A stretch of 64,000 nt of DNA, from assembly GCA_012845835.1 (NCBI GenBank), contig JABAKD010000002.1:19056629-19120628 (forward strand), given 5' to 3'. Under the pieces are notes generated by a model. It searched no databases, was not told the DNA's origin, and saw nothing but the letters and a program-made list of their open reading frames with translations. Shown here one piece after another: positions 10,917-63,219 of the stretch. Position numbers and translations under genes: made by a program. How positions within the stretch are numbered: position 1 is the stretch's first letter; every line of letters starts with the position of its first letter. Origin of the DNA: Undaria pinnatifida (Eukaryota; Sar; Phaeophyceae; Laminariales; Alariaceae).

Positions 10917-11401
<485 letters not shown>

Positions 11402-11517
11402 TGTAAAACGTGTACGTGGGGTGTGCGAGCTACGTACGAATGGTGCGAGCTATGTATGGCTGAGCAGCGGTTCGTGCTATGTGCGGGAGGGGTTTGCAAT
11501 GATTGCTATGGAGGGAT

Positions 11518-11883: not shown

Positions 11884-12029
11884 GTAACATAGATATAGTA
11901 TGTTAGATTGAGCTCAAAATCCCCCACCTAGAGTAAAAATACCAACACCAACCATTATATATAGTAGTAGTGGAGAAAAGCAAAATATATTGAATACCTG
12001 GTACTGCATATAATGAGGACACACAACTC

Positions 12030-22393: not shown

Positions 22394-22668
22394 GTGGAAG
22401 ATTGGGTCGCAGACGCAATCTGGATTTTGTTGGAAAGTGAGAATTGAGGTGTTCTTCCATGATTGGTTATCGTGACGTATTGTACCGAGGACACAGTCAA
22501 CCTTTGAGCAGTCTTCTCCTTGCTGCTGTTGTGGGAGTATACAATACGTACAGCAGAAGGGGTACACGTAGGGCCGCCTGATCGCACGACTCAAAGACAG
22601 CGTGCAGTGGAGGAAGCGGACGGCGGCAGCTACGCAAGAATAGTGACTGGCTAGCCAGTGGTTTTTCT
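22394..22668 (+). repeat. Ngaro repeat A1
   Basis: Starts GTGGAAGATTGGGTCG and ends CCAGTGGTTTTTCT. Direct copy of A2 at 27519-27793. It forms the left end of the element and its 5' untranslated region. Confidence 0.92.
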
Positions 22669-22791
22669 CTCGGCTTCGCGGAGGCTGGAGGGCAAAGTTT
22701 TTCCCTCGCGTTTTTTTTTCATATTTTTTTTGACGCGGGGGGTTTTTGCTTTGGTCCGAAGGAGCTGCAAACCGAGCGATCTACTGACACG

Positions 22792-23745
22792 ATGAGCGGG
22801 CGTGGCGCGGGCGCTGCTGGCGATGCAGTGGTTGGTCCTGGAGGCGAACACAACGACAATGGGGCCGGGCATGTGGGAGATGGGGCTGGGCAAGGGGGAG
22901 ACGAGGACGGCCAGATGGACCTCGACGGTCTACGGGCACTCATGGAAGCACGCCTTGATGATTTCGACACTCGCCTCGCCCAGCAGGCTGACATGCTGGT
23001 GCAGCTGCAAGGAATGCTGCAGGATGGGCTGTTGGGCGGCGCGGCTGGACCAGGTGGACCGATTGGAGGGGGACAGGAGAAAAGCGTGGCTGAATCTAGG
23101 TTCCCGCTCGCAGACCAACTCGCGATTCTCGCGCACGCGGTATCTACTGTCGTGGGCTACGGCGAGCACACGGAGAACACTACAGCGCGCCTCCGCACCC
23201 TGGACGCTGCGTTAGCGAGGGGGATCGAGGTGGTACGGGAGCACGCCCTGGATTTTTTCGAGGCGATGAATGTCCCAGCGAACCGCAGTCGGTTGGCGAA
23301 GCTGATCAACGCGGACCTTGCCGCCTGGAGCTCGAAACTTGTCCGGGCTGGAGTGAGCGCGGGGGTCACCTGGCATGAACCACCCCCACCGGGCCAGCTA
23401 CCTGCTGTTGTGGTGCCGGTATGGGCTAAGTTGGACGCGTTTATCGATGCTGGGGGGCTGATGAACGTGGAAGAGGCGGCAGTGGAGCGCCCGGCAAAGC
23501 AGCGCAAGGTGGGGGACAAAGTGGACAGAGTGGACAAGGCGTGCTTTGGTTGGCGCAATAACCAACCCTGCCGTTTTGGTGACTCCTGCCTGTTCACACA
23601 CGAGGGAGCCAGCAAGTCGGGGGGTGGCGCTGGAAAGGGGGCGGCTACCAAGAAAGCAGGGGGGTCGGCGGCTGCGGAGAGATTGGCGGCGGGCGCTCAG
23701 GGGGGAGGGTCGGTCGCCGGTGCGGAGGCTTTGCGCGGCGAATAG
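22792..23745 (+). CDS. Ngaro Gag-like protein with a CCCH zinc finger
   Basis: A 317-residue frame that starts at the first ATG after A1. The N-terminal 45 residues are Gly/Asp-rich. Residues 45-75 (LRALMEARLDDFDTRLAQQA) look like a short coiled coil. A helical middle follows (LADQLAILAHAVSTVVGYGE, LDAALARGIEVVREHALDFF). Near residue 245-265 the stretch ACFGWRNNQPCRFGDSCLFTH fits C-x8-C-x5-C-x3-H, a CCCH finger of the RNA-binding type, followed by a basic Gly/Ala/Lys tail. By position and composition it is the Gag that packages element RNA. A CCCH finger in place of the usual CCHC knuckle is notable. It ends 244 bp before the Met of the RT frame, in another frame. Confidence 0.8.
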   Translation: MSGRGAGAAGDAVVGPGGEHNDNGAGHVGDGAGQGGDEDGQMDLDGLRALMEARLDDFDTRLAQQADMLVQLQGMLQDGLLGGAAGPGGPIGGGQEKSVAESRFPLADQLAILAHAVSTVVGYGEHTENTTARLRTLDAALARGIEVVREHALDFFEAMNVPANRSRLAKLINADLAAWSSKLVRAGVSAGVTWHEPPPPGQLPAVVVPVWAKLDAFIDAGGLMNVEEAAVERPAKQRKVGDKVDRVDKACFGWRNNQPCRFGDSCLFTHEGASKSGGGAGKGAATKKAGGSAAAERLAAGAQGGGSVAGAEALRGE

Positions 23746-23989
23746 GGGTGCGGGCCTCGCTTGCGGGCGGGGCCGACCTCGGGGGCAGGACAGGGCGAGG
23801 CGGGAGCGAGGAACGCACAGCTCGTCATGCCGGGGTCGGTGGGATCGACAAAATCAGGTGTGCTCAGGGAAGGGAAGGGGGGCGTCTCGCTAGTAGGTCC
23901 GTGTGTGTCCGTAGAGGAAGTTATGGGGGTCGAGCCTTCGCGGCAAATGCCAGTTCACGAAGGAAGTTCTGGCCCTCGCCTCGCGGACG

Positions 23990-26266
23990 TTGGGGTGGGG
24001 CACAGCGCGCGGTGGCGCCGGGGTGTCTCAGAAACAGGACCGAGCGTGCCCCAGCCAGTCCGGGCACGGTAGCCGTGCTCGGTGGCAGAGCGATGATGTT
24101 CGCGGGTGGGTAGCAGCGTGGCGGTACCTTTCGAGTGTGCGTGGGGGGAACCGGATATCTGTTACACGGGCGTTGCAGAAAGTAGCGAGTGAGTTACTGT
24201 TGTTTCTGCAAGATCATGCTTATCGGTTCGAGTGCATGATGGAACCAGAGCGTGTGTTTTCGGGGCACCGCCTGAATCCCTCACGAATCCTAGAGTGGTT
24301 TGGTCGTACGAAAGGCTTCCCTGAGGCGGAGAAACTGGCTCGCATCGCGGAGCATGGGGTCCCCGTGTGTGTCGCTAGCGGTGGGGACCTCACTTTCGCA
24401 CTCCGATACGAGAATCACAGTAGCACCGACATGTACTCGAATGACATTACTGACAAGATCCGCGATGATGTTAGGCTCGGCCGAGCGTTCGTGTTCCCCC
24501 GGGAGGCGGCTGCGCGCATTCCGGGATTACGGGTCTCGCCGTTGGCAGTAACGAAATCCAGTACGAAGTTGCGCGTGGTGCACGACTTGACTTTCGCTAG
24601 CGGTACGTCGACGACAGGTGTAAACGGCGACACCGATTTTTCATCGGCTCCAACGTGTGAGCTCAAACATGTCTTGCGCGATATTATCTGGCGGATTCTA
24701 TACTTGCGGCAGCGATTCGGGCGTAGGGCGCGCATTGTACTGAGCAAAATGGATGTTAAGGATGCGTTTCGGCAAGTTCCAGTCGAGATCACGCGCGCGC
24801 CGGTGTTCGGATACGTGTTCGGGGATTTGGTTGTGGTTGATAGGCGACTGCAATTTGGCTGGCGTAACAGTCCAGGTTTCTGGTGTTTGTTCTCGTCGGC
24901 GTTGGAGCATGCTCACAATAACACCTCTCACTGCAATGCGGTGTGCACTGACAGCGGTCGCGAGGCCACGCGGCACGTCGTAATGATACCGGCGCGCGAA
25001 TCGCAAGCGGCAGCGTTGCCGCCGGGCTACATCGCCCCGCCTGGGCGGGGCGGTGACATAAATGATCCGTTCTTCGTGCGTTACTATGTAGATGATGGCG
25101 TTTGTGTTGAGGTACAACGGTACAGCTCGGGCGACCGCTGTTTGTGTGCATCGGCGTCTCTGGCGCCCGAACACTTCCGCTTGTTCGGCGATCGTAACCC
25201 GACGGACCCTCCCCTCTTGGCGAAGAAAAAGATTTCTCACTGGGACACCCAGTTAGAAGTCTTGGGTTGGGCAATTGACTCGGGAGCAATGACCATTGCG
25301 CTCACTGACACGAAAGTGGCTCAGCTGAGGGCTCTGCTCCTCAAGTGGCCGAGGAACCGTCGGTACGCGTTAGAATCCGAGGTACGGGAGCTGGTTGGGA
25401 AGTTATTGTACGCCAGCGAGGTGGTGCGGCCGGGCAAGTTTTTCGTGCGCCGTATGCTGAACATGCTTGGTCTGCCCCCCGTGAAGCAGTGGCAGGAGAA
25501 ATTTGGGGGCGGCGGCCAGCGGTCCCGAAGACCGGGCCGTCTACCCCTCGGCCCAGAGTTTCACGCTGACATTGGGTTTTGGAAGTTGATGGTGAGCGAG
25601 GAACTTGCACTACCGTTGTCCTCGCCGCTGTATACTCGTTTCCTACAGCGCCACTCTCGTACGCTGGTGTCAGATGCGTCGGGGACGGCCGTGGGAGGCT
25701 ACTGCTTGGAGACAGGGGCATGGTGGCGGTTTGAGGTGGACCAGGACGCAAAATCTCGTTTGAGCCAACGTGTCAAGGACCACAACGATCTGTTTATCAA
25801 CGTCCTTGAATTGTTGGGGATGGTAATCACGGCTTGGATGTTTGTCGTTGGCGCTGGATCACAGCCTAGGTTCGAGGGCGAAAACGTGTCGATGTTGGGC
25901 GATAACATGTCCGCGGTACATTGGGTAGGAAAATGTCGGGGGGGGACTGAGCCGAGGTCTGGGGCTCTGATGCGTATGCTAGGATGCTTGGAAATGCGTA
26001 GTGGGTGGTGCTTTCGGGCGAAACATGTGAAAGGAATTGCGAATACGCTGGCCGACGGTCTTTCTCGGTGGGAACGAATCGATGTTAACAGACACCTTCA
26101 CGAATCTCGCCCGGACATTACATGGCAGGAACAGGACCTGGGGGAGACGGGGAGGGCCCTATGTACAGGGATATTGGCGTCCAGTACATCCGCGGGTCAG
26201 TTGCGGAGTCATCTGAGCGCACTTACGCGTCAGGTTTCAGGTCTTGGACTAAATTTCGCGGGTTGA
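23990..26266 (+). CDS. Ngaro reverse transcriptase and RNase H
   Basis: A 758-residue frame, uninterrupted; the frame is open from 23894, so the true start may be upstream of this Met. RT motifs: VVHDLTFASG, SKMDVKDAFRQVPVE (motif A Asp), LQFGWRNSPGFWCLFSSALE (motif B region) and YYVDDGVCVEV, with the catalytic Asp pair at codons 25091-25096 (residues 368-369). RNase H follows with LVSDASGTAVGGY, NVLELLGMV, MLGDNMSAVHWVGK and ANTLADGLSRWE, giving the Asp-Glu-Asp-Asp set. It copies element RNA into DNA. Its 3' end overlaps the recombinase gene by 145 bp in another frame, so translation of the two is probably linked by reinitiation or frameshifting (inference). Confidence 0.93.
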   Translation: MGWGTARGGAGVSQKQDRACPSQSGHGSRARWQSDDVRGWVAAWRYLSSVRGGNRISVTRALQKVASELLLFLQDHAYRFECMMEPERVFSGHRLNPSRILEWFGRTKGFPEAEKLARIAEHGVPVCVASGGDLTFALRYENHSSTDMYSNDITDKIRDDVRLGRAFVFPREAAARIPGLRVSPLAVTKSSTKLRVVHDLTFASGTSTTGVNGDTDFSSAPTCELKHVLRDIIWRILYLRQRFGRRARIVLSKMDVKDAFRQVPVEITRAPVFGYVFGDLVVVDRRLQFGWRNSPGFWCLFSSALEHAHNNTSHCNAVCTDSGREATRHVVMIPARESQAAALPPGYIAPPGRGGDINDPFFVRYYVDDGVCVEVQRYSSGDRCLCASASLAPEHFRLFGDRNPTDPPLLAKKKISHWDTQLEVLGWAIDSGAMTIALTDTKVAQLRALLLKWPRNRRYALESEVRELVGKLLYASEVVRPGKFFVRRMLNMLGLPPVKQWQEKFGGGGQRSRRPGRLPLGPEFHADIGFWKLMVSEELALPLSSPLYTRFLQRHSRTLVSDASGTAVGGYCLETGAWWRFEVDQDAKSRLSQRVKDHNDLFINVLELLGMVITAWMFVVGAGSQPRFEGENVSMLGDNMSAVHWVGKCRGGTEPRSGALMRMLGCLEMRSGWCFRAKHVKGIANTLADGLSRWERIDVNRHLHESRPDITWQEQDLGETGRALCTGILASSTSAGQLRSHLSALTRQVSGLGLNFAG

Positions 26267-27264
26267 CGAGCGCCGTTTTGTATTTTTCGGAAGACAACCC
26301 CAAGAGTGATATGGTATGGGCGCTGGTAGACTTTGCGGCTTGGTGTTGTGCGTCGGAAGGGAATAAAGTCGGTACGATTAAAAGTAAGATAGCGGCGGTG
26401 CAATATTTCCATCGCGTGAAGATAGGCACGGAGCTCCCGACTAAATCGCCCCTGCTGGAACGCGTTTTCAGCGGGATATCGCGGGCACATGCAGTAGCGG
26501 GTACGGAGAAGCGGGTGCGCCGCCCGGTGTCATGGGAAATGTTGTTGGACGGGGAGACATTGATACCGTCCTGGGGCAGTGGCGGCCGAATCCTTTGGTT
26601 GTGTCTGGCATTGGGGTATTTTTTGATGACGCGATCCGACGAATTATTTGCGACAGACGCCGGCGTGGCGCACCAGGTGCATTGTTTGACTAAGGGGGAC
26701 GTTGCGTTTTACTCAGGTGGGGAGCAGTTGCCCTTTTTGCGGTGGCGGGAGGCGCGTACGGTAGAGATTCGTTTTCGCGGTCATAAAGGGGACCAGCTTC
26801 AAGCAGGCGACGTGCTAGTACAAACACGAGACGCTGTTCGGGGCTTGGGCTCGAGCTTGCGCGAAGGGGGTGGAGCCGTGGCGCTGCTTGTGGAATTGTT
26901 GTCTATTCACCCTAACTTGCCGAGTTCGGCGCCGTTAGCGTCTTTCCGCGAATCGGGACGGGTAGCAGTGTGGAGCTACGGGCAAGCACTCCGGGCGTTG
27001 CGAGAGGTAGTGGCAAAGTCGAGGCAAGACCCAGCGGAATTTGCACTACACTCGCTCCGGATCGGGGGCGCGTCGCGCTTGGCGGCAGGGGGGGGGTTGT
27101 CAGAACGGGTAATACAGAGAGAAGGGAGGTGGAAATCGGATGCGTATAAGGTGTATACTCGTAGTAATATAGAGGATTCGGGACAAGTGTCACGAAAACT
27201 AGCTCGACAGGACAGGTGTCCCCAAAGAGAGCCGGGACAAGGGACGGAGTGGGGCCATAAATAA
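26122..27264 (+). CDS. Ngaro tyrosine recombinase
   Basis: A 380-residue frame. The N-terminal part (YIRGSVAESSERTYASGFRS) matches the core-binding SAM-like domain of phage-integrase-type recombinases. The catalytic domain has Arg in LMTRSDELFA (residue 171), His-x-x-Arg in LHSLRIGGAS (His310, Arg313), Trp in REGRWKSDAY and the nucleophile Tyr in YKVYTRSN (Tyr345). All key catalytic residues of the family are present. It is expected to insert a circular DNA copy without the DDE chemistry of LTR elements. The start overlaps the RNase H end. The protein has the usual length for Ngaro/DIRS recombinases. A poly-basic Gln/Arg tail follows the catalytic domain. Confidence 0.93.
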   Translation: MAGTGPGGDGEGPMYRDIGVQYIRGSVAESSERTYASGFRSWTKFRGLTSAVLYFSEDNPKSDMVWALVDFAAWCCASEGNKVGTIKSKIAAVQYFHRVKIGTELPTKSPLLERVFSGISRAHAVAGTEKRVRRPVSWEMLLDGETLIPSWGSGGRILWLCLALGYFLMTRSDELFATDAGVAHQVHCLTKGDVAFYSGGEQLPFLRWREARTVEIRFRGHKGDQLQAGDVLVQTRDAVRGLGSSLREGGGAVALLVELLSIHPNLPSSAPLASFRESGRVAVWSYGQALRALREVVAKSRQDPAEFALHSLRIGGASRLAAGGGLSERVIQREGRWKSDAYKVYTRSNIEDSGQVSRKLARQDRCPQREPGQGTEWGHK

Positions 27265-42852: not shown

Positions 42853-45377
42853 CTGTAGAGCGAACCAATTTGATCTAGCCTCATGAGGGGTCTACGGGTC
42901 AGCAGTATTGGAACAGGGCCGTACTTTCATCGAAGCTTAGTGGAGAAGGAAGGACCATGTTTGTGGAGCCAGCCTTTTTCGAGATCAGCGGAGACGAGCA
43001 GCAAGGCGCAAGGAAGAGTCCGGTGGGAAGAAGGAGAGAGCCAACGCTGGTATGGCAGGGAGGGATGCTGTACTGCCATCGTCAGAATTCTCCGATGGTG
43101 GAAGAGGGAGGGCAGCTTGATAGGCGAGTCGTCTTCAGACCCAGAGATGATGTTTTTTTTGGAGACGTCGTTTTCAGGGAAAAGCCACTGCTGCTGTAGA
43201 CTATGTACTACAGCAGCAGTAGCTAAAGCCCTACGGTGGAGCTTGACCGTAGGCAGGGAGTAGCAGCAGCTTACGTCCATGGTGATAGCATAACCTATGA
43301 CACCCCCACTGTATACGGCGGACAGGGGGGTTTACAGCAGCAGCTGAAAGCCCTATGGCGGAAGTACAGCCGTAGGCACCCTCGCCGTGTGTTGCGAGCG
43401 GGGGATTCTTATTTGCAAGGCATGTATCTTGTTATATATTGGGCGTGCGCCCTCGACTTCAGAAGGTTGGTTGTGGAGGCAGCAGGTATGGGGTTATCTG
43501 CATTTTCCGCGAGAAGTCGCATGGCCGCCAGCCGTGTGCACTCTACCATGGTGAATGATGTGGTAGGGCGAAGCCGCGCGGCATAATAGCCGCGTGGTTC
43601 CTGCTGCTGGTAACAGTGGTAGGAAAGGACGTGGGGTAATCGTGGGCTGTCTGCAGCAGTACCAAATAACGATGGGGTTTCGTCCTGGCAACAAGTCGAG
43701 CGGCATGGCCGCACGCACTCCATGATATGCAGCAGCAACAGCAGCAGCAGGAGAGGTCATGGAGGGAGCAGATCGGTTCATTATTTTGCCAGCCGGAGCT
43801 TCATGGTTCGGCAACATCGCGGGGCGGGAAGGGGGTACAGGTGTGGTCAAAGTGGTGAATCTATTTTTACGATGGATTCACTTTTCGATCGAAGCATTGT
43901 TTTTGGCCGAATATGACGTTTATTTGTTTACGGCAAGAGTGAAGACCCGTTAAATAGTAGGCGATTCATTTGCGGTTAAAGTGGAGACCCGCAGATAGTA
44001 CCATCTAAGATTCGTTCTGGATGGTACACGTAGCCCTTTTCGCCAGGTAGTTTAGAAGTGTTTTTCAGGTTCAAATCAAACAGTTTTTGTAAATCCGAAA
44101 ATTTGTAGTGTTTTTCTGGTGTAGACAGGACCAGAAGGGAACTGGTGGAACTGATATACATACGATAACGCTTGGTAGATTCGAAAGTGTGCTTCATGTT
44201 CAAATCAAACAGGCTTTGTAAGTCCGAAAAACTTGTAGTGTTTTTCTGGTGTAGACAGGACCAGAAGGGAACTGGCGGAGCTGATATACATACAATAACG
44301 ATGTGGAGAAAAGGGTACGTAGGTGCATCATGATGAGAGGTGTACCGCTGATGTATGGTATTGATGGTAGCATTGATAGTATTGAATTTCGCGGGTATCT
44401 TTTGTTTTGGCAGTAGTCTTCTGATTGATTGCAAAATAGAGGTGGGCATTTTCATGATTGATTGGTTGTTTTACCAACAGCATCACTTTGCAAATGCTTG
44501 TTCGCAAAGGAGGAGTGAAACGCGAAATGTTTTTGCGATGGTCGAATACTTTGCGTAGCTGGGAGGGCTTGAGCTGCTCGTGTCGACAGTGGCGGCATTT
44601 TAATTGTTTCTTTATTCGATTATTTGGAGATATAGCAAGCAAAAGCCCAAAGGAGAGTATTTTCGGTTTCATTATAGTTTGCGAATGACCAATATTTCGG
44701 GTAATTACGCTTGTTGGCGAGGATTGGTTAGATTGGCTAATAGATCTCGCTGGTATCTCTTGTTTGTGGTTGTCTACGTGTGTTGATGAGATGGGGTGGG
44801 ACGATTGTGACCGTACAGTACAGGACATACTGGTCTCAAATGAGAGAGGGGATGCAAAGTCGAATTAGTCATTGGATCACCAATGTTGATTTTCCGAACT
44901 TGATGGGTGGTTGCAATCTTGTTTGGGAATTCGAAGGATGAGATACTTTGAGAATTTGATTTAATTCTCAAGCAACTTTTTGCATTTGTTTTGCAATGAA
45001 AAACGGCGTGGCTTGTGGATGGTCAGATACTCTTTGTATCAGGGAGAGCGTATGCTAATTTTCGCGTCAGATAAACTCTGTGTTTGCAGACAAGAATTCA
45101 TGCAATATCGTTTTACCGGTATGATCTGCGTATCTATGGCGGTCGTAGGGGACAACGGGAGACCTTGCGATTTCTGGCATTTTATTTGTCGCATTAGTTT
45201 TTGCCCTGATGGCGCGGCTGTTATAATCTCTTCATGTGATTACACTTGTTGTAAGTGGAAGTATGGGAGAGGTTTTCGCTCATGGGGATGAGTTTCCTCT
45301 TGCCATTTTTGGTGTTTTAGGTTATGGAATTGAGTCAATTGTTGATTCGTCACTGTCTTGTGAAGAATCCGGGAGGG
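42853..45377. other. Interior of the 3.1-kb element
   Basis: Open frames such as 42883-43263, 43236-43586 and their minus-strand partners have no recognisable domain. Similar short blocks AGCTAAAGCCCTACGGTGGA (about 43222) and AGCTGAAAGCCCTATGGCGG (about 43342) suggest internal duplication. Nothing coding is supported. Confidence 0.4.
44056..44305 (+). repeat. Tandem duplication, period about 129 bp
   Basis: Two copies share TTCAAATCAAACAG (44070 and 44199) and GTAGACAGGACCAGAAGGGA, ending in ATATACATACRATAACG. It lies inside the 3.1-kb LTR element. Confidence 0.8.
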
Positions 45378-45655
45378 TGTTGATTTGGGATTTTCAGTAT
45401 GACAGTTACGTATCAGTTTCGTGCCGTTTCGGGCTATTGGACTATTATTGGGTGCCTAGTAGTACCTGGTTGGCGTTCTTGATGGTATACTGCTGTGCGT
45501 TCTCGCTCGGGAGCTCACTCTTCTCGGAGGTCTTACGCACGAGTTCTCTTTTCGGAGGTCTCACGCACGAGTTCTCTGCTCGACTTGCCTCTACCCTGTG
45601 GTTGAGAGACATAATACAATGACTTGAAACCTCCCCCGCTTGGAGCTAACGAACA
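45378..45655 (+). repeat. 3' LTR of the 3.1-kb element
   Basis: Direct copy of 42554-42852 with substitutions and a small deletion. Confidence 0.72.
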
Positions 45656-45659
45656 TAGA

Positions 45660-45795
45660 AGTCCCCCGATAGTGCCGGCTGTGCCTGTGAATCGCTTGAC
45701 AAAGATATGTACTTTCAGTACTGGAAGTAGTGCGGGGAGTAGTGCCGGTATTTACGGCTGACACATACCGGCACTATTGAGGGACTAGTACATAT
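45660..45795. repeat. Inverted repeats around AGTGCCGG
   Basis: GATAGTGCCGG (45668) and AGTGCCGGTAT (45741) can both pair with ATACCGGCACTAT (45765). The second pair makes a hairpin with an 11-bp stem. It sits between the short LTR element and the poly-C array. Confidence 0.5.
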
Positions 45796-45804
45796 AGTGC
45801 CTCC

Positions 45805-46740
45805 TTTTTTTTTTTTTTTTTTTTTCATATTTACCCCTCGTTTTCTTCGTGGTTTTCCCCTATCACCGATTAAATAGAAATATACCACATGCCTCCACAC
45901 ACATAAGAAGTATAGTATAACACTGCGGCCGTGTATACCCCCGCCACAAACTCACCCCCCCCCCCCCCCGGTAGATATACAAGAAACAACGCACCGGATT
46001 CCCCCCCCCCCCCCCCCCCCCCCCCCTCGCGCTCCTTCTTCCCTCCATGCCTAGCCGGTTAAACATAATAATGCATGAAATTGGAACCCCCCCCCCCCCC
46101 CTCGCTGCCTGATCGATTATAACATGATTTGCCACAGGTTTACACATATGAAAAGTATGTTATAACACTGCGACCTTGTATACCCTCGAGATAAACTGTT
46201 GGAACCCGCAACCCGCCCCCGCCCCCCTCCCCCCCCCCCCCCACCCCCACCCCAACCCCCACTAACGATGAAACAGAAACTATGAAACAAGAAAAGTATG
46301 CCATTACACTGCGAACATGTTCACCCCCACGCTAATTTAATTACCCCCCCCCCCGCCCCCCCTCCTTAACCCTCATCAACTTACGGTTATATAGAAATAC
46401 ACTCAAAAAAAGTATGCCCCCCCCCCCCCCCCCCCCCTTCTCAACTCACAGGTTTACCCTCCCCCGCTGCCTGACCCATTAAACATTATTTGCCACAGGT
46501 TTACACACATAAAAAATACCCTCGCGATGAACCGTTATAACCCCCCCCCCCCCCCTCCTCCCAACGATGAAACAGAAACGATGAAACAAATAAGTATACC
46601 ATTACACTGCTGTGACATTGAGTAACCCCACGCCAATTAAATCCCCCCCCCCCCCCCCTAACCCCCATCAACTTACAACTACATAAAAAATAAAAACATA
46701 TTATAAGCTCTTCCCCCTCCCCCCCCCCTCCACCCGCTCT
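45805..46740 (+). repeat. Poly-C tandem array upstream of the Penelope-like element
   Basis: A T run (45805-45825) is followed by units that contain GCCACAGGTTTACACA (about 46130 and 46490) and AACGATGAAACAGAAAC (46264 and 46564). C tracts of 10-35 nt separate them. The spacing of like blocks is about 300-360 bp, so at least two diverged tandem units are present. The G/P-rich open frames on the minus strand come from the C tracts. Confidence 0.8.
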
Positions 46741-46882
46741 CATCTACCACACCATAAACTTTACGACACACCAGATTACACTTGGACGACCTGGTCTTTG
46801 GAAACCTGAAGACCTGATCACACACCATCAGGAACAAGACGTGTAACCAAAAGCAGTCAGGCATTTAGACCCCCGATCAATC

Positions 46883-49800
46883 ATGCCACGGATACGGGGT
46901 AAACGTAGACCCCCACGACCATTTAAATGGGACGATGCATCTCCCTCAGGGATAATGCGAAATGCATTTGTACGAACTAGACAGGCAGTGATGATGTCTA
47001 ACCATCCGGCGCTAAAAAGGATTTGGAGGATTCGGAATGCTTGGTTGGCAAAGGGTAAGGGGGAAAGGGGGGATTTGCCACCAGGAGCACTTTGCCAGCA
47101 AAAGAGTGGGAAAACATTTCAAAAATGGCGCGTTGTTCCCGGCCCAGGTGGAAGACGCCCAGTCGCTGACAAGGACACATGTTCTATTTACGCCATAGTC
47201 CATTTGAAAAACGGGAAAACATACGTGGGACGAACGATCAAGAGCCCGTACGTTAGATTCCAGGAACATATTTCCACAACAGACGCTCTAGGTAGAGAAA
47301 TCAAGGCGGATCAAACCAAATTTGTAGTCCTTCTCCTGGAAATAGTTCCCCGGTGTTTAGAGGGTGTGGAGAACTCAGGGACACCACTCCATTGGCGAGA
47401 AAGAGAAAACTCATGGATTAACCGATTGCACACACGCGTAAAAGGATACAATACACGTAGGGAAATTGCCAAGAGACAACTCCCACAGATACCAACACAT
47501 GGCTTTGGGATTAGACGGGTCAGACGCTCTAGGCACAAATCGCGTATTTCTAAGATAACGCACAATGGGTGAGTGTTTCTGTCTAGAGACTGGCAGCGTA
47601 GGATTAATTACTTTGCCGGACTCGTTAATAATAGACCACACTTGGTGGATTCGTACATCTTGCACTTGGCCCCCAGAAACTTGCTCCGTATGATCAAGTA
47701 CATAGGACAACACGGCATTCCCGGTAACGTCCAAAAGGCTTTCAATGTACTCAGGAAACGCTACTTGAGCTCGTTCCCGACGCCTTCGGTCCAACCGGTG
47801 AAAGTACCTAAGTTAATCGTCATGGGATTCACTAGTGAGATTGCCAACGTAGTCCCCCTGCGCGGATTACTGATGCGCCCAAATACATTAAGTAGGATAC
47901 CCCCTGTATGCGTTGGGTTTCGGGAGAGCATTACGGAAACAATTCCGTGTTTCAAGTATGGCCAGACCTTGGATTCTTTCTTCCTCAATGCCAGCGCCGT
48001 AGCACGCGACATCAACCAGGATTTTCAGTGTATTTGCGGGAATTCTAGATGTTCTAAGTATGCCGTATGTATTAAGGATGGTTCCCTTTGTGTATTAACA
48101 ACGGATGCAGAGTGCCTTAAGCGAAAAGATGCTGAAGGCAGGCCGGGTTTAGATTAGATTATTATGCGGAGGAGAAGCATACAGCACCATTTTATGTGCA
48201 ATTGGTCACGGCCATTGAGGAACATGTAGCCGAGATCTGCAGCAACTTAGCAATCAACTACGTGGATACTTTAGACTGGAGGAACACGCTATTTAAAGAA
48301 ATACGTAGGTGTTTAGAATACGCAGAAGATGCTGCTGAAACACGTCTAGTAACAGGCAACATCGACATTTCGGCAGCCAGACACGCATTCAAACAGGCGC
48401 ATAAAAGTGTCGTTATCACCAAAGTGGACAAAGCAGCAAACTGCTTGAGCGTCATGTGCAAAGCCTGTTATGCGAGAGTAACCACAGCAGAGTTGAGTGG
48501 TCCAGGATATACACGAGTTGAGAGTGAATTGTTCCCAGACCTCATAGAAAAAATCACGACGAGGCAAATTACATATTTGCTGAAGGAACATTTACCGATA
48601 CCGATGGTCATGGTCAAAATCCAAAATCCTCAAAATCCACACAAACACAAGTATGTCAAAAGGTACTCTACGCAGATACCGGTTAGATATCTTATGCCCA
48701 AATTACACAAAGCGATCCCAGCTTTCCGGTGTATCACAGCGTGTTGTGGCACAACCACAGAAGGCGTAGCTAAGATAGTAAATGCAGTACTCGTTGGCAT
48801 CAGACCAGTACTAGATGCCTTGTGGCGTGAAGAATGTATTCGTATCGGTTTGGTTGCAAACAATTGTTGGATCACGTCTGGTGGGGCTGAGATAGTAGAT
48901 GTTATGAAAGATTTGGACCACAAAGCAGCGATGATGGCAAAAAACGGACTGCCTCACCACCTGGAAACTTTTGTTTTTGTGGCCATGTACACTAACATTC
49001 CGGTCAAATGTCTTAAACGTATCGTGGGCGAGTTACTGGACTTGGTATTCACGTACCAAGAAGCAAAAGACGGTTCCAAATCGATGTACATTAAGTATGG
49101 GTTCAAAAATAATGAAAAGGAACCGAAGATCAACAAAATACACTGGTCTTTCAACCCTCCTGTAAATGCTAATGGAACAACCAACAACAAAAGGGAATTT
49201 AATGTTGGTCAAGCTAAACTGTGTGAATGGATTAACTTCGTATTAGACGAAGGGTTTGTACAATTTGGAGGAGCGATATATATATAAGCAATCATCGGGC
49301 ATATTCATGGGCACTGCACCCGCACCCGATTTAGCGAACGATTTTGCGTTCATGCATGAACTCAATTTCCTAAAAACTATGATAAATAGATATTTGCTCG
49401 ATACGAGAAACAACATTGAACCTCTTTACCCTTTAGAGTTTATTGAACAGTACGGTAGTAGCACTAAGAGATTCATAGATGACATACTTACGGTAGCACC
49501 AGGCTTACCAAGTAGGAAAGGCCCTACGTTTGAACAAATTATCAAGCGGGAAGGAGGGGAGGGGGGGGTGTATGGTGGAATGTACCCAGAACACATCCTG
49601 GATGACGAGGGTGAGCAGGTTGCGAACCCTGTATCTATCACCAAGGAACAAAGAGGGCAAACAGTGCATTTCCTGGATATGGAAATTCTTCAAAGTACTC
49701 CTGGAGTGTCGCAAATTCGAATGTATGATAAGCGGGACCACATGGAGACACTGAAGCAGTACCGTAGATACCCCCACACTGAAACACGATTATCAAAAAA

Positions 49801-50149
49801 GTGTTTGTATGCGACCCTCCATTGCCAACTTTGTCGATTTGCAATTAGGTGCTCGGAAATCCATTTCTTCCAAGTAGCAGCTGCTAAGTTGATGACGGAC
49901 ATGATTAGACATGGTTATGCCAAGGAACGTTTGAGGAACAAACTCCACAATTTCCGCAAAACATTTTTCAAAAACTCACCAATAAAGCCGACTATTAAAA
50001 GAGTGCATGACCCGGTTGTACGTGAGAAGTATTGGTGGTTGGTCACTGAAGGAGTTTGGAAATGTATCGAAAGGGAAGGTCAAGCACCCGGGCATGATAG
50101 ACTGCTGAGTGATGAGTGGGTATGTCTTTGTACGTTACATGATTTTTAG
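46883..50149 (+). pseudogene. Penelope-like retroelement with N-terminal GIY-YIG endonuclease
   Basis: One original reading frame in three pieces. Piece 1 (46883-47572, frame 2) holds the GIY-YIG nuclease: SIYAIVHLKNGKTYVGRT, Arg in YVRFQEH and Glu in WRERENSWINRLHT. A single in-frame TGA at 47570 separates it from piece 2 (47573-48157), which has CICGNSRC, a CxC motif (codons 48029-48037). Piece 3 (frame 1, from about 48151) is RT: VRYLMPKLHKAIPAFRCI, then AMYTNIPVK. A second shift in a TA run at 49276-49287 leads to piece 4 (frame 2): SGIFMGTAPAPDLANDF, KRFIDDILTV (catalytic Asp pair 49478-49483) and VHFLDMEIL. Endonuclease before RT joined by CxC is the permuted order of the N-terminal-EN Penelope clades, not the classic C-terminal order. 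Confidence 0.9.
47175..47480 (+). other. GIY-YIG endonuclease domain of the Penelope-like element
   Basis: The GIY equivalent is SIY and the YIG equivalent is YVG. The usual conserved Arg and Glu follow. No CCHH zinc set is apparent around it, which would fit the Chlamys-type branch better than Naiad-type or canonical Penelope nucleases (family knowledge plus inference). Confidence 0.8.
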
Positions 50150-50920
50150 GAATGAGCGATTGAATTGCAGAAGTTATACATGATTTATGGGAATGGCCAC
50201 TTCGCCTCTCCCTTAAACGTTTATTTTTACAAAGTGTCATAGAGGAATGAACAACCACCGTTTAGGGGAATATATCGATATAAGAGTTATGGAAAAGGGG
50301 GAAGGGGGGGGCGGGGGGGGGGGGGGGGGTATTTTCGTGGAGAAGTGGAAACGTAGTCACGTAAGCATAGCCGTAGACATTAGAGTCTGAGAGCGTAATG
50401 CAACGTCGTACCTGAATAAACAATGTGTGCGGACATGTTGATTCGAGTTATTCGGAAGAGGCGTCTACATTTGGATGTGTGTGGGTTGGGAAGCGGGTAC
50501 ATATGAGTGTGGAAGTGAGTATGGACTGTGCATGTCGAGTACTGGGTATTTGTGGGTTGAAAAGAGGGTGTATATAAGCATGGAAGTGTTCAACCTACGT
50601 TCGTAGGTTACAACGTCTTTATTAAACATCTGAGGATTACAAAAACGTTTTCACAAATAACATTGTTACGTATGGATTAATTTGTCTTCTCGACGACGTC
50701 GATTGAGGAATGTAAATTATAACCAAGTTTCTCAACTATACCAACGCAAAACACACATTCATGACGTACATATCAAACACACTACCTAGAACCGAAATAT
50801 TTCAGGAAATAAACAACGCCAAAAATCCTGCCAAAACATGGTATGTCCACGGAAACAACGAACGTTACTGAGTCCAAATCACGCCTGAATGCATCTCGCA
50901 CTTTCCTTCAAAGGACCCAC
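50150..50920. other. 3' flank of the Penelope-like element and poly-G tract
   Basis: Directly after the stop, TACATGATTTTTAGGAATG and TACATGATTTATGGGAATG repeat within 40 bp. A G-rich tract lies at 50298-50330. A diverged 65-70 bp tandem pair with TGTGGGTTG.GAA (50485 and 50550) follows. No gene seen. Confidence 0.45.
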
Positions 50921-50988
50921 ATCGAAATCCGCCAGAGTATTGAACACTTCCACGTGCTGGAGATCCCACTGCTGCAATTCACCCCCTT

Positions 50989-51019
<31 letters not shown>

Positions 51020-51300
51020 CCCTTCCCTCACCAGATAATGGACTTCCGTCCACAGACTGACTAACATCACCCTGTTGACCCGGATAGCTACACTGTAGTT
51101 GCAAGTGGAGTCGCCGAAACATCCCCAAACCTCCCACAACTCATCACATGTCACCCACCAACATGACGGGATACTCAATAAGCAGACTACCTATACATAC
51201 CAACGCTTTCCTGTCAAATCCCCCCCCCCCCCCCCCCCCCTGTCCCCCCCCCCCCCCCCCTCCCCCCCCTCCCTTCCCCCCCCCCCCCCCTTTTTTTCTT
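50921..51300 (+). repeat. RepC fragment (copy 3) with long poly-C tracts
   Basis: ATCGAAATCCGCCAGAGTAT then poly-C (50987-51016), then CACAGACTGACTAACATCAC and CACTGTAGTTGCAAGTGG, modules in the same order as in RepC copy 2. Further C tracts run at 51219-51290. Confidence 0.65.
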
Positions 51301-51662
51301 AAACCGTAGCCTCACTCCGTATTTCGATTCAACCCACACAGTGTAGCGAAATAAATAATACACACATAGCCGAACTATGAAGAGTAACGGTATCATAAGT
51401 GTATTATGATACCGCTACAACGCATAGTTGTCAAGGCTGGTTACTGCATGTCTATCTTCAGGGATAAATATGCATTTAACCATACTTGACAAAAGCCGCG
51501 AGGGGGAACGTTGAAATTCCCAAACGTCCCTCGCAACTTCGTTTTAGGCCCCCCGAAGCAGTTTTCTCGGCGTACAAAAATACGTTTTGCAGATATATAC
51601 AACAGCCCCCCCCCTTCCCCCCCCTCCCCCCTTCCCCCCCCCCCCCCCCCCCCCAACCACTG
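51301..51662. other. Unassigned stretch with a poly-C tract
   Basis: No gene. C-rich run at 51606-51655. A small palindromic stretch TATCATAAGTGTATTATGATA lies at 51390-51410. Confidence 0.35.
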
Positions 51663-52060
51663 TACACCAATATATATTCGAAAACACGATTCTGATACAA
51701 TACGATAATGAAGTCTAGAACATCAAGCAAAAAGTACGTGTAGAAAAAAACCACGTGGTTGCAAAACAAACAAGACAAAATAATATGTATTCGAAAACAC
51801 CACCCTGATACAATACGATAACGAAACCTAAAACATCAACCAAAACGTACACGTGTAGCAAAAACTACGTGGTTACAAAATAACATGTATTCGAAAATAC
51901 CGCTCCGAAACAACACGATAACAAAGTCTAGAACATAAACCAAAACATATACGTGTAGCATCAAAAACGCGGAAAGCACCACTTTGAAACAATACGATAA
52001 CCAAGTCTAGAATATCAACCAAAACATACGTGAAACAAAAACCACGCGGACACACGACAC
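51663..52060 (+). repeat. Tandem repeat, period about 105-115 bp, four diverged copies
   Basis: Each copy has TATTCGAAAA.AC, ACAATACGATAACGAA, CTAGAACAT.AA and ACGTGTAGCA.AAA blocks, starting near 51670, 51785, 51887 and (truncated) 51970. Confidence 0.85.
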
Positions 52061-52690
52061 ACTAAAACCATATATACGCCCGCATACGAACACCAGTCAA
52101 AAGAAGGAACCCATATACCCTGGGTTCCAAATTGAGGTCCCTACGAGTCAGAAACATCACATAGTCCACATAAAGTCTTTACACAAACCTAAAAATGCGT
52201 CACAACTGCTCGTTGCCAAATGACAGGTTCATCAAGAACGCAAGAACAAACAGAACGAGAGGCAGGGTAATCGAAGCAGCGCTAATCATTATAGCATTCG
52301 CCCACCACATCACCTCCTTTGAAATTGATTTTGGGCATCAGCGAACTGGGTCCAACGCATGCCCGTAGTGTCTTAGGTGGAGTGAGGAGCGGTAGTAAAA
52401 ATCAAGTGCGCTGCTCGATAACCTGTTCCTGACCGTCGGTATACTGAACAATCTTCGGGCCGCGTCTTCTCTGTGTCAGGTGTGTGAGGAATTTCTTTGT
52501 CGTTTTTCAAGCAAGCGGTTGCGTTGGCATATACTACCTGGCTTGATGTAAAGGAAAGGAACACCACTGAGCGATCATCTACTACATGTTAGGGCATGTT
52601 TTCATGAACACCACTAACAAGAGCACCAGACATGGATGCGACATCTACAGGACTACAACATCTTCGACGACAGTTGGGAGAAAACAGGAC
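52061..52690. other. Unassigned stretch
   Basis: No convincing gene on either strand. The minus-strand frame 52373-52567 has no recognisable domain. Confidence 0.3.
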
Positions 52691-53520
52691 GTATAAGTGT
52701 ACACTATATATAGTCTATAATAATGTGAAAAGTAAGTACAGACAGGGATGTTACCACTGCGGTAAACCACACTACCAACCTATTACGCAGGGTATTTCGT
52801 GCCTCCATCCGCTTACATGATTGCCTGACAACCTCTACCATTCCAAACGCAGTGGAATGTGCCTAACGAAGTAAAGTCACCCTCGCGTGCAATAGTGGTG
52901 ACATCGCATGTCCACGTGAGACAACCTTTACGAAACGCAGTAGCATATGCCTGACGAAGTGAAGTCACCCTCGCCTTCAATAGTAGTGACATCGCATATA
53001 TATGACGTTGCATGCCCACCTCAACTGCTGTATTTGTAAGATGTATCTCTGTCTTAGAATTGGCGACCTCAGAGCCCCACAGCGGCACGGTAAAAATCAT
53101 GGACGTGAAATCGTACATTTGAGACAATAATAAGTTGAAAAGGAAGCACAGGCAGACCTGATAAAATTGCGATAAACCACACTGCCGACCCATCGCATAC
53201 ACTCCTGAGACGACCTCTACGAAACACAGTACCATTTACCTCACGAATTAAAATCACCCTCGCGATCAATAGTGATGACATCGCATATATATGACATCAC
53301 ATACCCACCTCGCCTGATGTATTTGTAGGACGTATCTCTGACTTAAAATTGACGGCCGCAGAGCCCCACATCGACAAGGTAAAATCATAGGCGTGAAATC
53401 GTACATTTATTTGAGACAAAAATAATTTGGAAAAGAAAGCACAGGCAGATGTGTTAAAATTGCGGTAAACAACCTTACCAACCCAATACGTAGGGTATTT
53501 CGTACATACCGTCTGCATGA
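52691..53520 (+). repeat. Diverged tandem repeats, period about 295-410 bp
   Basis: AAGYACAGRCAGR... followed by GCGRTAAACCACAC occurs near 52732, 53140 and 53435. AAGTCACCCTCGC followed by AATAGTRGTGACATCGCAT occurs near 52872, 52960 and, diverged, 53249. The sub-block around 52850-53000 is itself duplicated, which makes the period uneven. Confidence 0.75.
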
Positions 53521-54050
53521 TCGCCTCCCCACCTATGCCAAGCGAAGTATTACTAACGAGGTAACGTAATTGAGCGCGTGTATACCAAGTATGACTAATG
53601 AGGTGCCGTAATTGAGCACATGTATACCAAGCGTTCCTTTAAAACTGACGATTCGCATCCCTCCCTCTAATGCTCAATGGCGGAGACAGCACATGGCCAC
53701 ATACATCACCTCGCATGCTGTGTTTAGCAATACGTATCTCTTTCGTATAATTAGCGATGTCGATAATAATGGTAACTGTATGATGATGGTGACAAACAGT
53801 GCATGACCACATCACCTCGCCTGTTGCATTTGACAATACGTATCTCTTTCTTATAATTAGCGATGTCAGAAAATAATGGTACCTACAAATATTCTATAAA
53901 ATATTCTAGCTTTCGATCCATGTATCATACAACAACAAATTATGAAGATTTAAAACGTTATTTTCTACACTTAAAACACTGGGTTGCATGCTGCATCTAA
54001 CATCAAACCTTCTAGAATAGTAAACATTACAAGCCAGATGATATAAAGGG
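53521..54050. other. Unassigned AT-richer stretch
   Basis: It contains a small repeat of TTGYATTTGACAATACGTATCTC and AATACGTATCTCTTTC.TATAATTAGCGATGTC (53728 and 53834). No gene. Confidence 0.35.
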
Positions 54051-55345
54051 ATGCCTTATTGCTTCAATCGTCAGGTTTGTCCCCTTTGAGGATTTATAGT
54101 GTCCGCGCACATATTGAAATGTCCCGCCCCCCGCCCCCCCCCCCCCCTCCCCTCCCCCTCCACTGACCCCTCTTTTTCATAAAAAAACCCAACCCTTCCC
54201 CCCCCGCCCCTCCGTCCCCCGATCCCCCCCCCCCCCCCCCCTTCCGCCTAGTCTGTCCAAACGCCCCACTCACAATCAAAATCGGCCTGAGTAATAATCA
54301 CCTATACGCAGTTGATATCACGTCATTATCTTTCTGACCATCCATGACGTAGTTTTCAATTATTTTCCCCCCAACCCCCCCCCCCCCCCCCCCCTCCCCC
54401 CCCTCCAACGCCCCCTCTTTTCCGACCACCTGCTCGATCGCCTAGACCTAGCACCACGCGTATAACAAGCTGCTACATATCTTTGATCTCACAGCCGAAG
54501 TGTATTTGAATATTATTTGTGACCTAAACCTCCTAAAAAATCTCCCCCCCCCCCCCCCCCCTCTTGCTCTCCCTTACTCAAACGCCCCACCAAATATCGA
54601 AATCCGCCACATTAATAAACACTTCACGCACAGGATATCACCTCATTATCTTTCGAGAGCCATCCATGCCGCTGTGTTCCCCCCCCCCCCCCCCCCCCGC
54701 CTCGAACGCCCCCTTCTTCCCCATCACCCGCACCATCGCCTAGACCTAGCACCACACGTATAACAAACCCCTCACCTGAAGCCCTTTCTCCCCCCCCCCC
54801 CCCCTTCAACGCCCCCTCTTTTCCGACCACCTGCACGATCGCCTAGACCTAGCACCACGCGTATAACAAGCTGCTACATATCTTTGATCTCACAGCCGAA
54901 GTGTATTTGAATATTATTTGTGACCTAAACCTCCTAAAAATCCCCCCCCCCCCCCCCCCCCTCTTGCTCTCCCTTACTCAAACGCCCCACCAAATATCGA
55001 AATCCGCCACATTAATAAACACTTCACGCACAGGATATCACCTCATTATCTTTCGAGAGCCATCCATGCCGCTGTCCCCCCCCCCCCCCCGCCTCGAACG
55101 CCCCCTTCTTCCCCATCACCCGCACCATCGCCTAGACCTAGCACCACACGTACAACAAACCCCTCACCTAAAGCCCTTCCCCCCCCCCCCCCCCCCCCCC
55201 CCCGCCCCCCCCCCCGCCCCCACCCCCCACCTTCCCCCCCAACCCATCCCAACCCTACCCCCTCGAACACTCCACCCTCTCTTTACTCACTGATCGTACG
55301 ACTTACCCCAGGATATCCTTATTAATTAATACGCTAAGGATGGTC
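54051..55345 (+). repeat. RepC copy 4 with an internal 400-bp tandem duplication
   Basis: RepC modules GTCAGGTTTGTCCCC (54068) and CGCCTAGACCTAGCACCAC (54439, 54736, 54841 and 55131) are separated by poly-C tracts. A block from about 54409 to 54807 is repeated almost exactly from about 54808 to 55200; each contains TTTGATCTCACAGCCGAAG, GACCTAAACCTCCTAAAAA and CACCAAATATCGAAATCCGC. The main difference between copies is C-tract length. Confidence 0.85.
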
Positions 55346-55919
55346 GTGAAGGTGGTCGTGACGTTTTGGATCTTTGAAAAATATCTTGGTTAAAACACCC
55401 CCCCAAAAAAAGCGGCGACTCCCGAGCTCCACTCGGCCTCAGGCGGCCTCGCGGTGCCGCCACGTCCCATCCGCACAGCAGCACTACGACATGCCGGCGA
55501 AAGAACGGCCGTCGGTGCCCCACCTCGGCGAGGGGGGAGCGTGGAAATCGCCCTCCCGGGGACGGCTCGCTTGCCCCCCCCCCGCTTTTTCTTCGTCGCT
55601 GCCTGCTAATTTTTTTTTTTCGAACTCCCAACTATATTGTGAGGAAGACTAAAAATAAATGTTGAACAACAAATGCTACTCGAGTTATTGCTTTTTGGCC
55701 ACTTGGGCCATGGACACAGCCATGGATGGACACGAGACCACAAGCGCGCCTGCGTCAACAGCAATCACACAACACCAGGACCAAACACAGCAGCGTCCAG
55801 CCGTCGCCGCTCGCCGTGCGCAGAATTGGCAAAGCGAGCGCTTTTGGCTTGGCCTAACCAGCCCGAGAGCATTGTAACCAACAAATCGGCTGCTGCTCGC
55901 CTGTCAGGTGTATTGCTCT
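55346..55919. other. Unassigned stretch left of a satellite
   Basis: GC-rich part at 55410-55590 with no recognisable domain in its open frames. No gene supported. Confidence 0.3.
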
Positions 55920-56870
55920 AGGTACTGCTGCATTGCTGCACTGCTGTACTGGGTAGGTTCGTGGGTGCATGGTGGGTGGTGTTCTGCTGTGCTGTACGTA
56001 CTGCTGCACTGCTGTTCTGATGTACGCACTGCTGCACTGCTGTTCTGCTGTGTGTAGTAAAGGTTTGGTCGGTGGATGGGTGAAGCGTGCACTGCGTCGT
56101 CCGTGGTGGGTGGGTGGACCGTTCTGTTCGTGGGAGTCTTTTTTTTGCTGTTTCCTGTTTCATAAGAACCATCCAATGCGCCCCGCGTACCAGGTGTATA
56201 CTGCTGTACGTACTGCTGCACAGCTGTTCTGATGTACGGACTGCTGCACTGCTGTTCTGCTGTGCTGTACGTACTGCTGCACTGCTGTTCTGATGTACGT
56301 ACCGCTGCACTGCTGTTCTGCTGTATGTAGTAAAGGTTTGGTCGGTGGGTGGGTGGAGGGTGCACTGCGTCGTCCGTGGTGGGTGGGTGGACCGTTCTGT
56401 ACGTGGGAGTCTTTTTTTGTTGTTTCCTAATTCATAAGAACCAACCAACTAACTGCGCCCCGCGTACCAGGTGTATACTGCTGTACGTACTGCTGCACGG
56501 CTGTTCTGATGTACGGACTGCTGCACTGCTGTTCTACTGTATGTAGTAAAGGTTTGGTCGGTGGGTGGGTGGAGGGTGCACTGCGTCGTCCGTGGTGGGT
56601 GGGTGGACCGTTCTGTACGTGGGGGTCTTTTTTTTGCTGTTTCCTAATTCATAAGAACCAACCAACTAACTGCGCCCCGCGTACCAGGTGTATACTGCTG
56701 TACGTACTGCTGCACGGCTGTTCTGATGTACGGACTGCTGCACTGCTGTTCTGCTGCATGTAGTAAAGGTTTGGTCGGTGGGTGGGTGGAGGGTGCACTG
56801 CGTCGTCCGTGGTGGGTGGGTGGGCCGTTCTGTACGTGGGAGTCTTTTTGCGTCCTGTGGGAGATGAACC
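55920..56870 (+). repeat. Satellite-like tandem repeat, unit about 216 bp, four copies
   Basis: The landmark TAAAGGTTTGGTCGGTGG occurs near 56058, 56332, 56548 and 56764, i.e. spacings of 274, 216 and 216 bp. The first interval is longer because it carries an extra run of CTGCTGCACTGCTGTTCTG sub-repeats. Units 3 and 4 are almost identical. Open frames across it are repeat artefacts. Confidence 0.93.
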
Positions 56871-57174
56871 CTTTTTTTTGTTTCTACAATTTAATACCGG
56901 CCTCCCACTGGTGCTTGGGAGTACCACCGTCCCCACTGCTGCACTCCTCTGTCCTTTACTACCGTACGTACTACTGCTGCCGTGTTATCATTTTTGTTTT
57001 GCAAAACTTACATACAGAGGATGATACCTTTACTACCGTACGTACGGCGGCATTGTCGTACTGCCCTGTTATTATTTTGTTATTTTGGTACTTAATACAG
57101 AGGATACAGCACCAATTTGTTTTTGTCCGCCATACCGGCCGGCACCTGGCATATTTCGGGAGTACCACTAGTAC
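56871..57174. other. Unassigned stretch after the 216-bp satellite
   Basis: TACTACCGTACGTACTACTGC (56957) and TACTACCGTACGTACGGCGG (57031) with ACATACAGAGGATGAT and ATACAGAGGATACA show a diverged 75-bp duplication. No gene. Confidence 0.35.
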
Positions 57175-57720
57175 ATGATAAAACTGATGTATTATTTCCA
57201 AAACCGCCACATTTATCCTCTCAAAATAATGTATAGTTTCCAGGCACATATTGAGCTGCCCCCCCCCCCCCCCCCCCCCCCCGCCCCAACCTCCCCCCCC
57301 CCCCCCCCCCGCCCCCAATAAAATACTGGTGCCAAAACCGTCAGATTTATCCCCTCGAAAGGATTTATAGCTTACATGCACAAATTGCCCCCTTTCCCCC
57401 CCCCCCCCCCCCCCCCTCCAAACCCGCTCGCTTTTGATCAAAACCAGGCCCCCTTTCCCTTCACAGCTGTCAGATGTTGTCCCCCTCAGAAACGGGTTTT
57501 ATAGTTTCCGCGCACAGACTGACTAAAATCATCCTGTTGACCCTGATAGCTACACTGTAGTTGTAAGGGGAGTCGCCGACCTATATCCTTAATGAGGACA
57601 CACAACTCGTAATGCGCGCGATCGGAGTATCACACACAGCTTGCAAAGATGAGTTTCGACGAAATCTTCGATCTCACAGCTGGAGTGTATTTTCATTTTT
57701 TATAATATAGTACTGGTAAC
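57175..57720 (+). repeat. RepC copy 5, right half well preserved
   Basis: It contains two diverged TTTATCC.CTC... blocks (57210 and 57343), poly-C tracts (57259-57310, 57398-57417), GCTGTCAGATGTTGTCCCCC, CACTGTAGTTGTAAGGGG, AATGAGGACACACAACTCG and the end block CGATCGGAGTATCACACAC then AAGATGAGTTTCGACG, ending near GTATTTTCATTTTTTATAAT. The last 130 bp match 12007-12130 of copy 1 closely. Confidence 0.8.
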
Positions 57721-63000: not shown

Positions 63001-63219
63001 CAAGTATGGAAATCGGGGAGTATTTTCATCTGTGAATTTAATGGGTAGGGTTGGGGGTCAGGGTTAGGGGTAGGGTTAGGTTTAGTATCTAAAGTAGTAT
63101 TTTGGGCAGTTTTTGATAATTTCCTTCTCAAAATACTGGGAGCAAACGTGGACCAAACCAAATTCCCCGATTTCCATACTTTATCCTAGATATCATCCAG
63201 AAGTGCGGTGAGGCGGCTC
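62962..63219. mobile_element. MITE-like element with telomere-like core
   Basis: The right arm of the hairpin plus CAAGTATGGAAATCGGGGA (62962-63019) is repeated inverted at 63164-63219, giving terminal inverted repeats of about 57 bp around a 258-bp unit with no coding capacity. The left hairpin arm is a third copy of the terminus, as if a second element had lost its interior. Confidence 0.75.
63043..63086 (+). repeat. Short telomere-like tract (TTAGGG variants)
   Basis: About 44 bp of GGGTAGGGTTG, AGGGTTAGGGGTAGGG and TTAGGTTTAG. The core fits degenerate TTAGGG units. It lies inside the MITE-like element, so it is an internal tract and not a chromosome end. Confidence 0.7.

Follow-up and report, generated by a model that had tools for sequence, protein, structure and literature searches.

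A decayed Penelope-like retroelement with an N-terminal GIY-YIG endonuclease, very probably of the Chlamys type, in the kelp Undaria pinnatifida

Organization of the element

The window analyzed here is a 64-kb stretch of DNA from the brown alga Undaria pinnatifida (coordinates C26:19056629-19120628 of the host assembly, G000). Located on its forward strand between positions 46883 and 50149 is the broken coding region of a Penelope-like element (PLE), in which a GIY-YIG endonuclease is followed by a linker with a CICG (CxC) motif and then by a Penelope-type reverse transcriptase (RT), the whole being spread over four open reading frame (ORF) pieces. This order had been given in a preliminary description of the sequence, and it is confirmed by the ORF pieces, Pfam, and a reading of the motifs. 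The limits proposed in that description, 46883 to 50149, do cover the ORF; the element itself extends from about 45814 to 57709, and roughly two thirds of it had been missed. The features are as follows.

45814..57709, + strand: whole element copy, from blastn comparison with 20 other copies; 3' end common to L012/L029, L014/L030, and L031
45814..46882, + strand: 5' untranslated region with poly-C tracts and imperfect repeats, from sequence reading and copy comparison
46883..47569, + strand: ORF piece 1, N-terminal stretch and GIY-YIG domain (PF01541; top fold match I-TevI, catalytic residues kept)
47573..48154, + strand: ORF piece 2, linker, in the frame of piece 1 beyond one TGA; CICG at 48029-48040
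48136..49284, + strand: ORF piece 3, in a different frame; RT fingers, KLHK, motif A, and the A-B segment
49247..50149, + strand: ORF piece 4, RT motifs B (SGIFMG) and C (RFIDD) and the C-terminal part, up to the stop at 50149
50150..57709, + strand: long 3' region ending in ...TTTTTTATAATATA; DNA beyond 51 kb common to 19 of the 20 fetched copies
55317..57171, no strand assigned: 1.86-kb insert with a 217-bp tandem array at 56263-56849, absent from L012/L029

A TGA at 47570-47572 and frameshifts near 48136-48154 and 49275-49287 break up the coding region. When aligned to L012, the one copy with a whole frame, it differs by one stop, two frameshifting length differences, and three that are in frame. 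With the insert deducted, the window copy measures about 10 kb, and it lacks about 286 nt at the 5' end of the full unit.

Copies across the genome

The host assembly (511,146,479 bases in 68 contigs) was searched for both domains. For the RT, 107 of the 247 candidates were scored, yielding at least 122 matches that merged by place and strand into at least 77 RT places. For the endonuclease, all 110 candidates were scored, and the resulting 102 matches merged into 61 places, 51 of which reach the catalytic part. At 42 or more of these 51 places an RT match lies downstream on the same strand at a distance of 537-1353 nt, with 23 of the 42 falling within the narrow range of 582-605 nt. Among the matches listed, an RT upstream or on the opposite strand within 3.5 kb was observed at none of the 51. 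Nine places have no RT match among the 107 of 247 candidates scored, a scope that may account for them.

Twenty copies were fetched, mostly from the best-scoring of the 77 RT places, and therefore they do not constitute a random sample. Only L012, out of 21 copies including that of the window, covers the whole frame free of stops and frameshifts. This frame, 1,088 codons from its ATG, contains in order the endonuclease, CxC, LHK, DFVAMYTN, SGIFMG, and RFIDDI, and thus the intact copy that the preliminary description had recommended searching for does exist. In relatives from outside the host, the ORF of P0027 runs from the endonuclease to CxC, and those of P0002, P0015, P0054, and P0056 run from CxC into the RT. 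The data suggest shared contigs for the pairs P0018/P0020 (both 7,287 bases) and P0010/P0022 (both 3,410 bases). Given that the domain order recurs at so many places, that no other arrangement was seen within 3.5 kb, and that L012 carries it in a single frame, it is not the product of chance. The endonuclease and the RT belong to one element and are parts of one protein.

Ratios of nonsynonymous to synonymous substitution (dN/dS) were obtained from pooled pairwise counts among 19 copies, with L024 and L027 excluded as too disrupted. The frame as a whole has a value of 0.443 (171 pairs). By segment, the ratio is 0.216 in the endonuclease (66 pairs), 0.430 in the RT (171 pairs), 0.507 in the linker (91 pairs), and 0.663 in the CxC stretch (136 pairs). 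As the pairwise values are interdependent and copies in decay shift them towards 1, these figures can only be said to point to selection for protein on the frame as a whole, with no finer reading. Endonuclease matches with 35-54% identity, at C30:20357741, C35:13890808, C20:2242031, and other places in G000, probably represent further PLE families in the same genome.

The endonuclease domain

The GIY-YIG domain, at about 47183-47452, was recognized by Pfam with an E value of 4.3e-07 and a score of 30.6 bits against a cut-off of 22.6. A search of its profile against PDB sequences returned I-TevI, also the top fold match, at E values of 0.012 and 0.053, together with one unrelated enzyme at 0.41. 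The domain occurs once in the L012 protein, at residues 100-189, and a scan of 1,087 of the 1,088 residues revealed no second, C-terminal GIY-YIG. Across 12 endonuclease sequences, none of the columns conserved at 90% or more holds a cysteine, and given the lack of a conserved pair there is no CCHH set. A lone cysteine directly preceding the first tyrosine of the GIY-YIG motif is kept in nine of the 11 sequences that cover this position. The CxC motif between the two domains is retained in 17 of the 18 copies covering it; the remaining three of the 21 do not reach it. The preliminary description was therefore correct in placing the endonuclease at the N-terminus only and in seeing no CCHH zinc set.

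The reverse transcriptase domain

The RT motifs that can be read in the window are KLHK (LHK with a lysine) at 48700-48711, SGIFMG at 49295-49312, and RFIDDI at 49469-49486, which represent the motifs known as LHK, B, and C. The aspartate of motif A is replaced by a valine in the window copy (48973-48975). Among the 21 copies placed on L012, this residue is an aspartate in 18, a valine in L019 and the window, and a tyrosine in L020; among the relatives it is an aspartate in P0001, P0009, P0012, and P0017 and a glycine in P0002. P0009 also carries a precomputed Pfam label, PF28514.1, that was not reproduced by the Pfam run performed here.

The solved folds nearest to the RT of the relative P0012 are those of telomerase RTs. 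Sequence searches of the PDB found no RT relatives, returning only two chance-level matches (E values of 1.5 and 2.1). In telomerase, the insertion-in-fingers segment is positioned between motifs A and B', and a segment of this kind between motifs A and B is also a feature of Chlamys-type elements. The preliminary description had proposed looking for such a segment before the LHK motif; instead, the long segment of this RT, a candidate counterpart, lies between motifs A and B. Both motifs were located in 14 relatives; 12 of these have a spacing of 105-109 residues, with values of 87 in P0031 and 124 in P0108. In the structure model, the segment consists of a helix and a hairpin. The window family falls together with P0035, P0016, and a Laminaria sequence in a tree of 13 rows, which comprises close relatives and P0108.

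Size and ends of the unit

Nine copies extend far enough in the 5' direction to show where, according to blastn, the DNA common to the window begins: at 45805-45841 in eight of them and at 45902 in the ninth, L017. Other copies start inside the element, namely L014 at 46302, L013 at 47141, L010 at 47320, L019 at 47640, L011 at 47735, L009 at 47883, L026 at 48024, L020 at 48085, and L023 at 48138. These nine staggered starts, judged from the alignments, read as the usual picture of 5' truncation. The first match of L027, which is heavily disrupted, is likewise at 48138. The 3' end at window position 57709, TTTTTTATAATATA, recurs in L012/L029 (with an interruption of about 1 kb), L014/L030, and L031, the copies in which it can be read; the fetched stretches of the others stop earlier. 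The 3' terminus of the unit is also cited as the TATAATATA end. On the basis of the L014 copy and its missing 5' part, the unit measures about 10.1 kb. No conserved protein is recognizable for the 3' region in the ORF list of L012 plus L029, to which the search was confined.

A single copy, L025, has in common with the window only 46708-50329, between poly-C and poly-G, with other DNA on its 5' side. On the 3' side its poly-G runs into N, and thus its 3' limit is an assembly gap.

Several observations concern the 3' region. Inside the body, a 74-bp stretch at window positions 51044-51117 resembles a portion of the 3' end of the element itself at a level of about 90%. It is present at the like place in 17 of the 20 fetched copies, and is either a fragment nested there long ago or a duplicate that serves a function. 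Three more fragments of the 3' region, at 12011-12134 (+), 12950-13428 (+), and 19505-20267 (-) of the window, are probably strongly 5'-truncated insertions. When the 3' end (window 57454-57709) was used as a query against G000, there were 426 first-look candidates, and the 40 that were scored gave at least 42 matches. There may be hundreds of 3' ends, as against at least 77 RT places.

No ribozyme was found at the 5' end of the unit, where Rfam gave one chance-level match that is not a ribozyme and the folding z-scores, with L018 excluded, were near 0. Rfam detected no hammerhead in window 44000-53000 or in L012 1500-3300 at E values up to 10. Nor did gathering scores, the sole threshold applied to 53000-57709, yield one anywhere in the window. 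Two hammerhead pattern matches lie far from the element and are no more than expected by chance. Chlamys elements are not known to carry a canonical hammerhead ribozyme.

Tandem copies, nested insertions, and a deleted derivative

The full 5' end begins with TCAAGCGCTCAGAGACGG. In all six fetched copies that possess it (L012, L015, L018, L021, L024, and L028), the 3' end of another copy lies immediately upstream. As L012 and L024 have flanking DNA in common, five of the six are independent. In L013, a 3' end of the element is followed by (TA)n and then by a 5'-truncated body. These head-to-tail junctions are the pseudo-long terminal repeat (pseudo-LTR) arrangement of PLEs, as described in the parts of PMC11167929 and PMC3846280 consulted. 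Inverted 3' ends are found near L016, L017, and L022, but the 5' flanks of L016 and L022 are nearly identical and hence these two are not independent.

For three nested insertions, the empty site is known. L020 lies in (AT)n within the ORF of another copy, L027 is inverted in poly-G, and L017 is accompanied by the loss of about 35 bases and by no simple repeat. Two of these three sites are thus simple repeats. A bias for simple-repeat targets is characteristic of Chlamys elements; in the kelp element, two sites out of three may or may not reflect one.

At ten places the endonuclease search found only the N-terminal part, and at eight of them the match ends at query residue 101 or 102. In L031, the one such place that was read, a 5' portion that starts about 85 nt into the full unit and includes roughly the first hundred codons is joined to the 3' region. 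About 3.7 kb are missing between the two, and the 3' end is present. L031 is an internal deletion, and derivatives of this type have probably spread in trans. A spliced intron was rejected as the origin of the deletion, the junction not being GT-AG.

Interpretation and alternatives

Taken together, the window copy is very probably a decayed brown-algal PLE of the Chlamys type, with an N-terminal endonuclease. Might the two domains instead be those of two adjacent unrelated elements, one bringing the GIY-YIG and the other the RT, as the preliminary description had considered? The three breaks between the pieces of the window copy and the nine endonuclease places without a scored RT match could be taken in this way. 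The single 1,088-codon frame of L012 refutes it, however, as does the genome-wide order with its recurrent spacing, and every boundary between pieces is bridged by ORFs of relatives. The idea was rejected on these grounds, and we give it practically no credence. A canonical Penelope/Poseidon-type element, with its C-terminal endonuclease moved or lost by local rearrangement, would likewise combine these two domains and occur in tandem copies with pseudo-LTRs, as far as the consulted parts of PMC11167929 and PMC3846280 describe them. Against it stand the constancy of the order at 42 or more places and in the ORFs of relatives, the single, N-terminal GIY-YIG of L012, on which a C-terminal endonuclease was rejected, and the lack of the cysteine pair of a CCHH set. 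It is very improbable, if marginally less so than two adjacent elements.

A domesticated host gene of telomerase or Penelope origin would accord with the telomerase-like RT fold and the coding constraint, but 20 of the 21 examined copies are broken or truncated and the RT matches are dispersed over the genome; this explanation is as remote as that of two adjacent elements. A more serious question is whether mobility belongs to just the 3.6-kb core at 46708-50329, between poly-C and poly-G, with the 10-kb unit a composite that caught it. L025, common to the window over just this interval and with different DNA upstream, is what such a core would resemble. Its 3' side ends in an assembly gap, however, and 19 of 20 copies have DNA well beyond the core in common. 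In addition, the 5' cut points vary and yet the 3' region is kept, with the 57709 end recurring in L012/L029, L014/L030, and L031. We therefore consider the core unlikely to be the mobile unit.

For the Chlamys-type element, the following life cycle can be envisaged. Its single protein of about 1,088 residues would bind its own RNA, and the N-terminal GIY-YIG domain would nick AT-rich or simple-repeat DNA. The telomerase-like RT would prime at an AT-rich 3' end and copy an RNA of about 10 kb, presumably halting early in many cases and leaving 5'-truncated copies. An RNA begun in an upstream partial copy would give rise to a full copy behind the 3' end of another, the pseudo-LTR arrangement. 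The TA-rich 3' end may itself act as a landing site, which would produce tandems, and copies with an internal deletion that still have the 3' end would probably be mobilized in trans. More speculatively, and with considerable doubt on our part, the long non-coding 3' region might work in the life cycle of a kelp Chlamys-type lineage of about 10 kb, in pseudo-LTR promoter activity, RNA recognition, and self-targeting, with the lineage feeding internally deleted passengers that keep both end regions and move in trans.

Relation to known elements

Chlamys elements are characterized by an N-terminal GIY-YIG, CxC, and RT without a CCHH set. In domain order, CxC, the lack of a C-terminal endonuclease, and the lack of a conserved CCHH set, the kelp element fits this group best, as the preliminary description had proposed. 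Naiad elements, from invertebrate hosts, likewise have an N-terminal GIY-YIG, CxC, and then RT, but they keep the CCHH set, whereas the kelp endonuclease is devoid of a conserved cysteine pair. Endonuclease-less PLEs differ in lacking the GIY-YIG that the kelp element carries. Telomerase RT, the closest solved fold for the RT of a relative, differs from the kelp element, which is mobile, repeated, and fused to an endonuclease. Chlamys elements were reportedly described by Craig et al. in 2021 from green algae, spike mosses, and slime molds. Relatives of the kelp element were found in the brown algae Laminaria digitata and Ascophyllum nodosum, the latter among the best 120 of 128 matches. Viral contigs were scanned as well, and the two pattern matches obtained were not confirmed as relatives.

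The preliminary description had suggested that the host might extend the known distribution. This wider extension is already in print, as Chlamys elements of Ectocarpus were reported in 2025 (PMC12477816). That report, in the parts consulted, lists three PLE/Chlamys families with 4,782 copies, 27 of them intact, and states that no earlier PLE was reported in TSAR and that PLEs are thus extended to a new supergroup. The two systems are alike in their brown-algal host, many copies, and few intact ones. The comparison is one of descriptions and not of sequences; the kelp element is about 10 kb, with several kilobases of non-coding 3' region, and its internally deleted derivative is a further feature to be set against Chlamys. 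PAc of Anolis, a Penelope/Poseidon element, shares with the kelp element a PLE RT and GIY-YIG, pseudo-LTR tandems, and AT-rich sites, but as described in the consulted parts of PMC11167929 its endonuclease is C-terminal and it has a hammerhead ribozyme, neither of which was found in the kelp element within the searches described above. A literature search by title and abstract returned, among the matches listed, no report of a brown-algal PLE beyond PMC12477816. The kelp family seems undescribed in the literature searched; its kind, layout, and host group are already known.

Other features of the window

A Gypsy-type element with a NADAR domain (E value of 1e-19), RNase H, and integrase occupies positions 1516-6777. 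It resembles the NADAR-bearing Gypsy lineage described for Ectocarpus in the portion of PMC12477816 consulted. The region 22582-27264 is a probable DIRS-like element, with a weak RVT_1 match (E value of 0.0065, below cut-off) and an ORF that by eye is like the end of a tyrosine recombinase; a fragment similar to it lies directly upstream of the L012 copy. A long trinucleotide microsatellite at 10803-11528 gives frames of poly-N, poly-T, poly-C, poly-L, or poly-V, and a short, telomere-like interstitial array of GGGTAGGGTTAG is located at 63043-63080.

Implications

With its intact frame and many dispersed copies, the Undaria element provides another genome in support of the permuted Penelope branch in brown algae. 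Its pattern of tandems, truncations, and deletions is readable at the level of single bases, and it is useful for the question of how the telomerase-like RTs of mobile elements prime.
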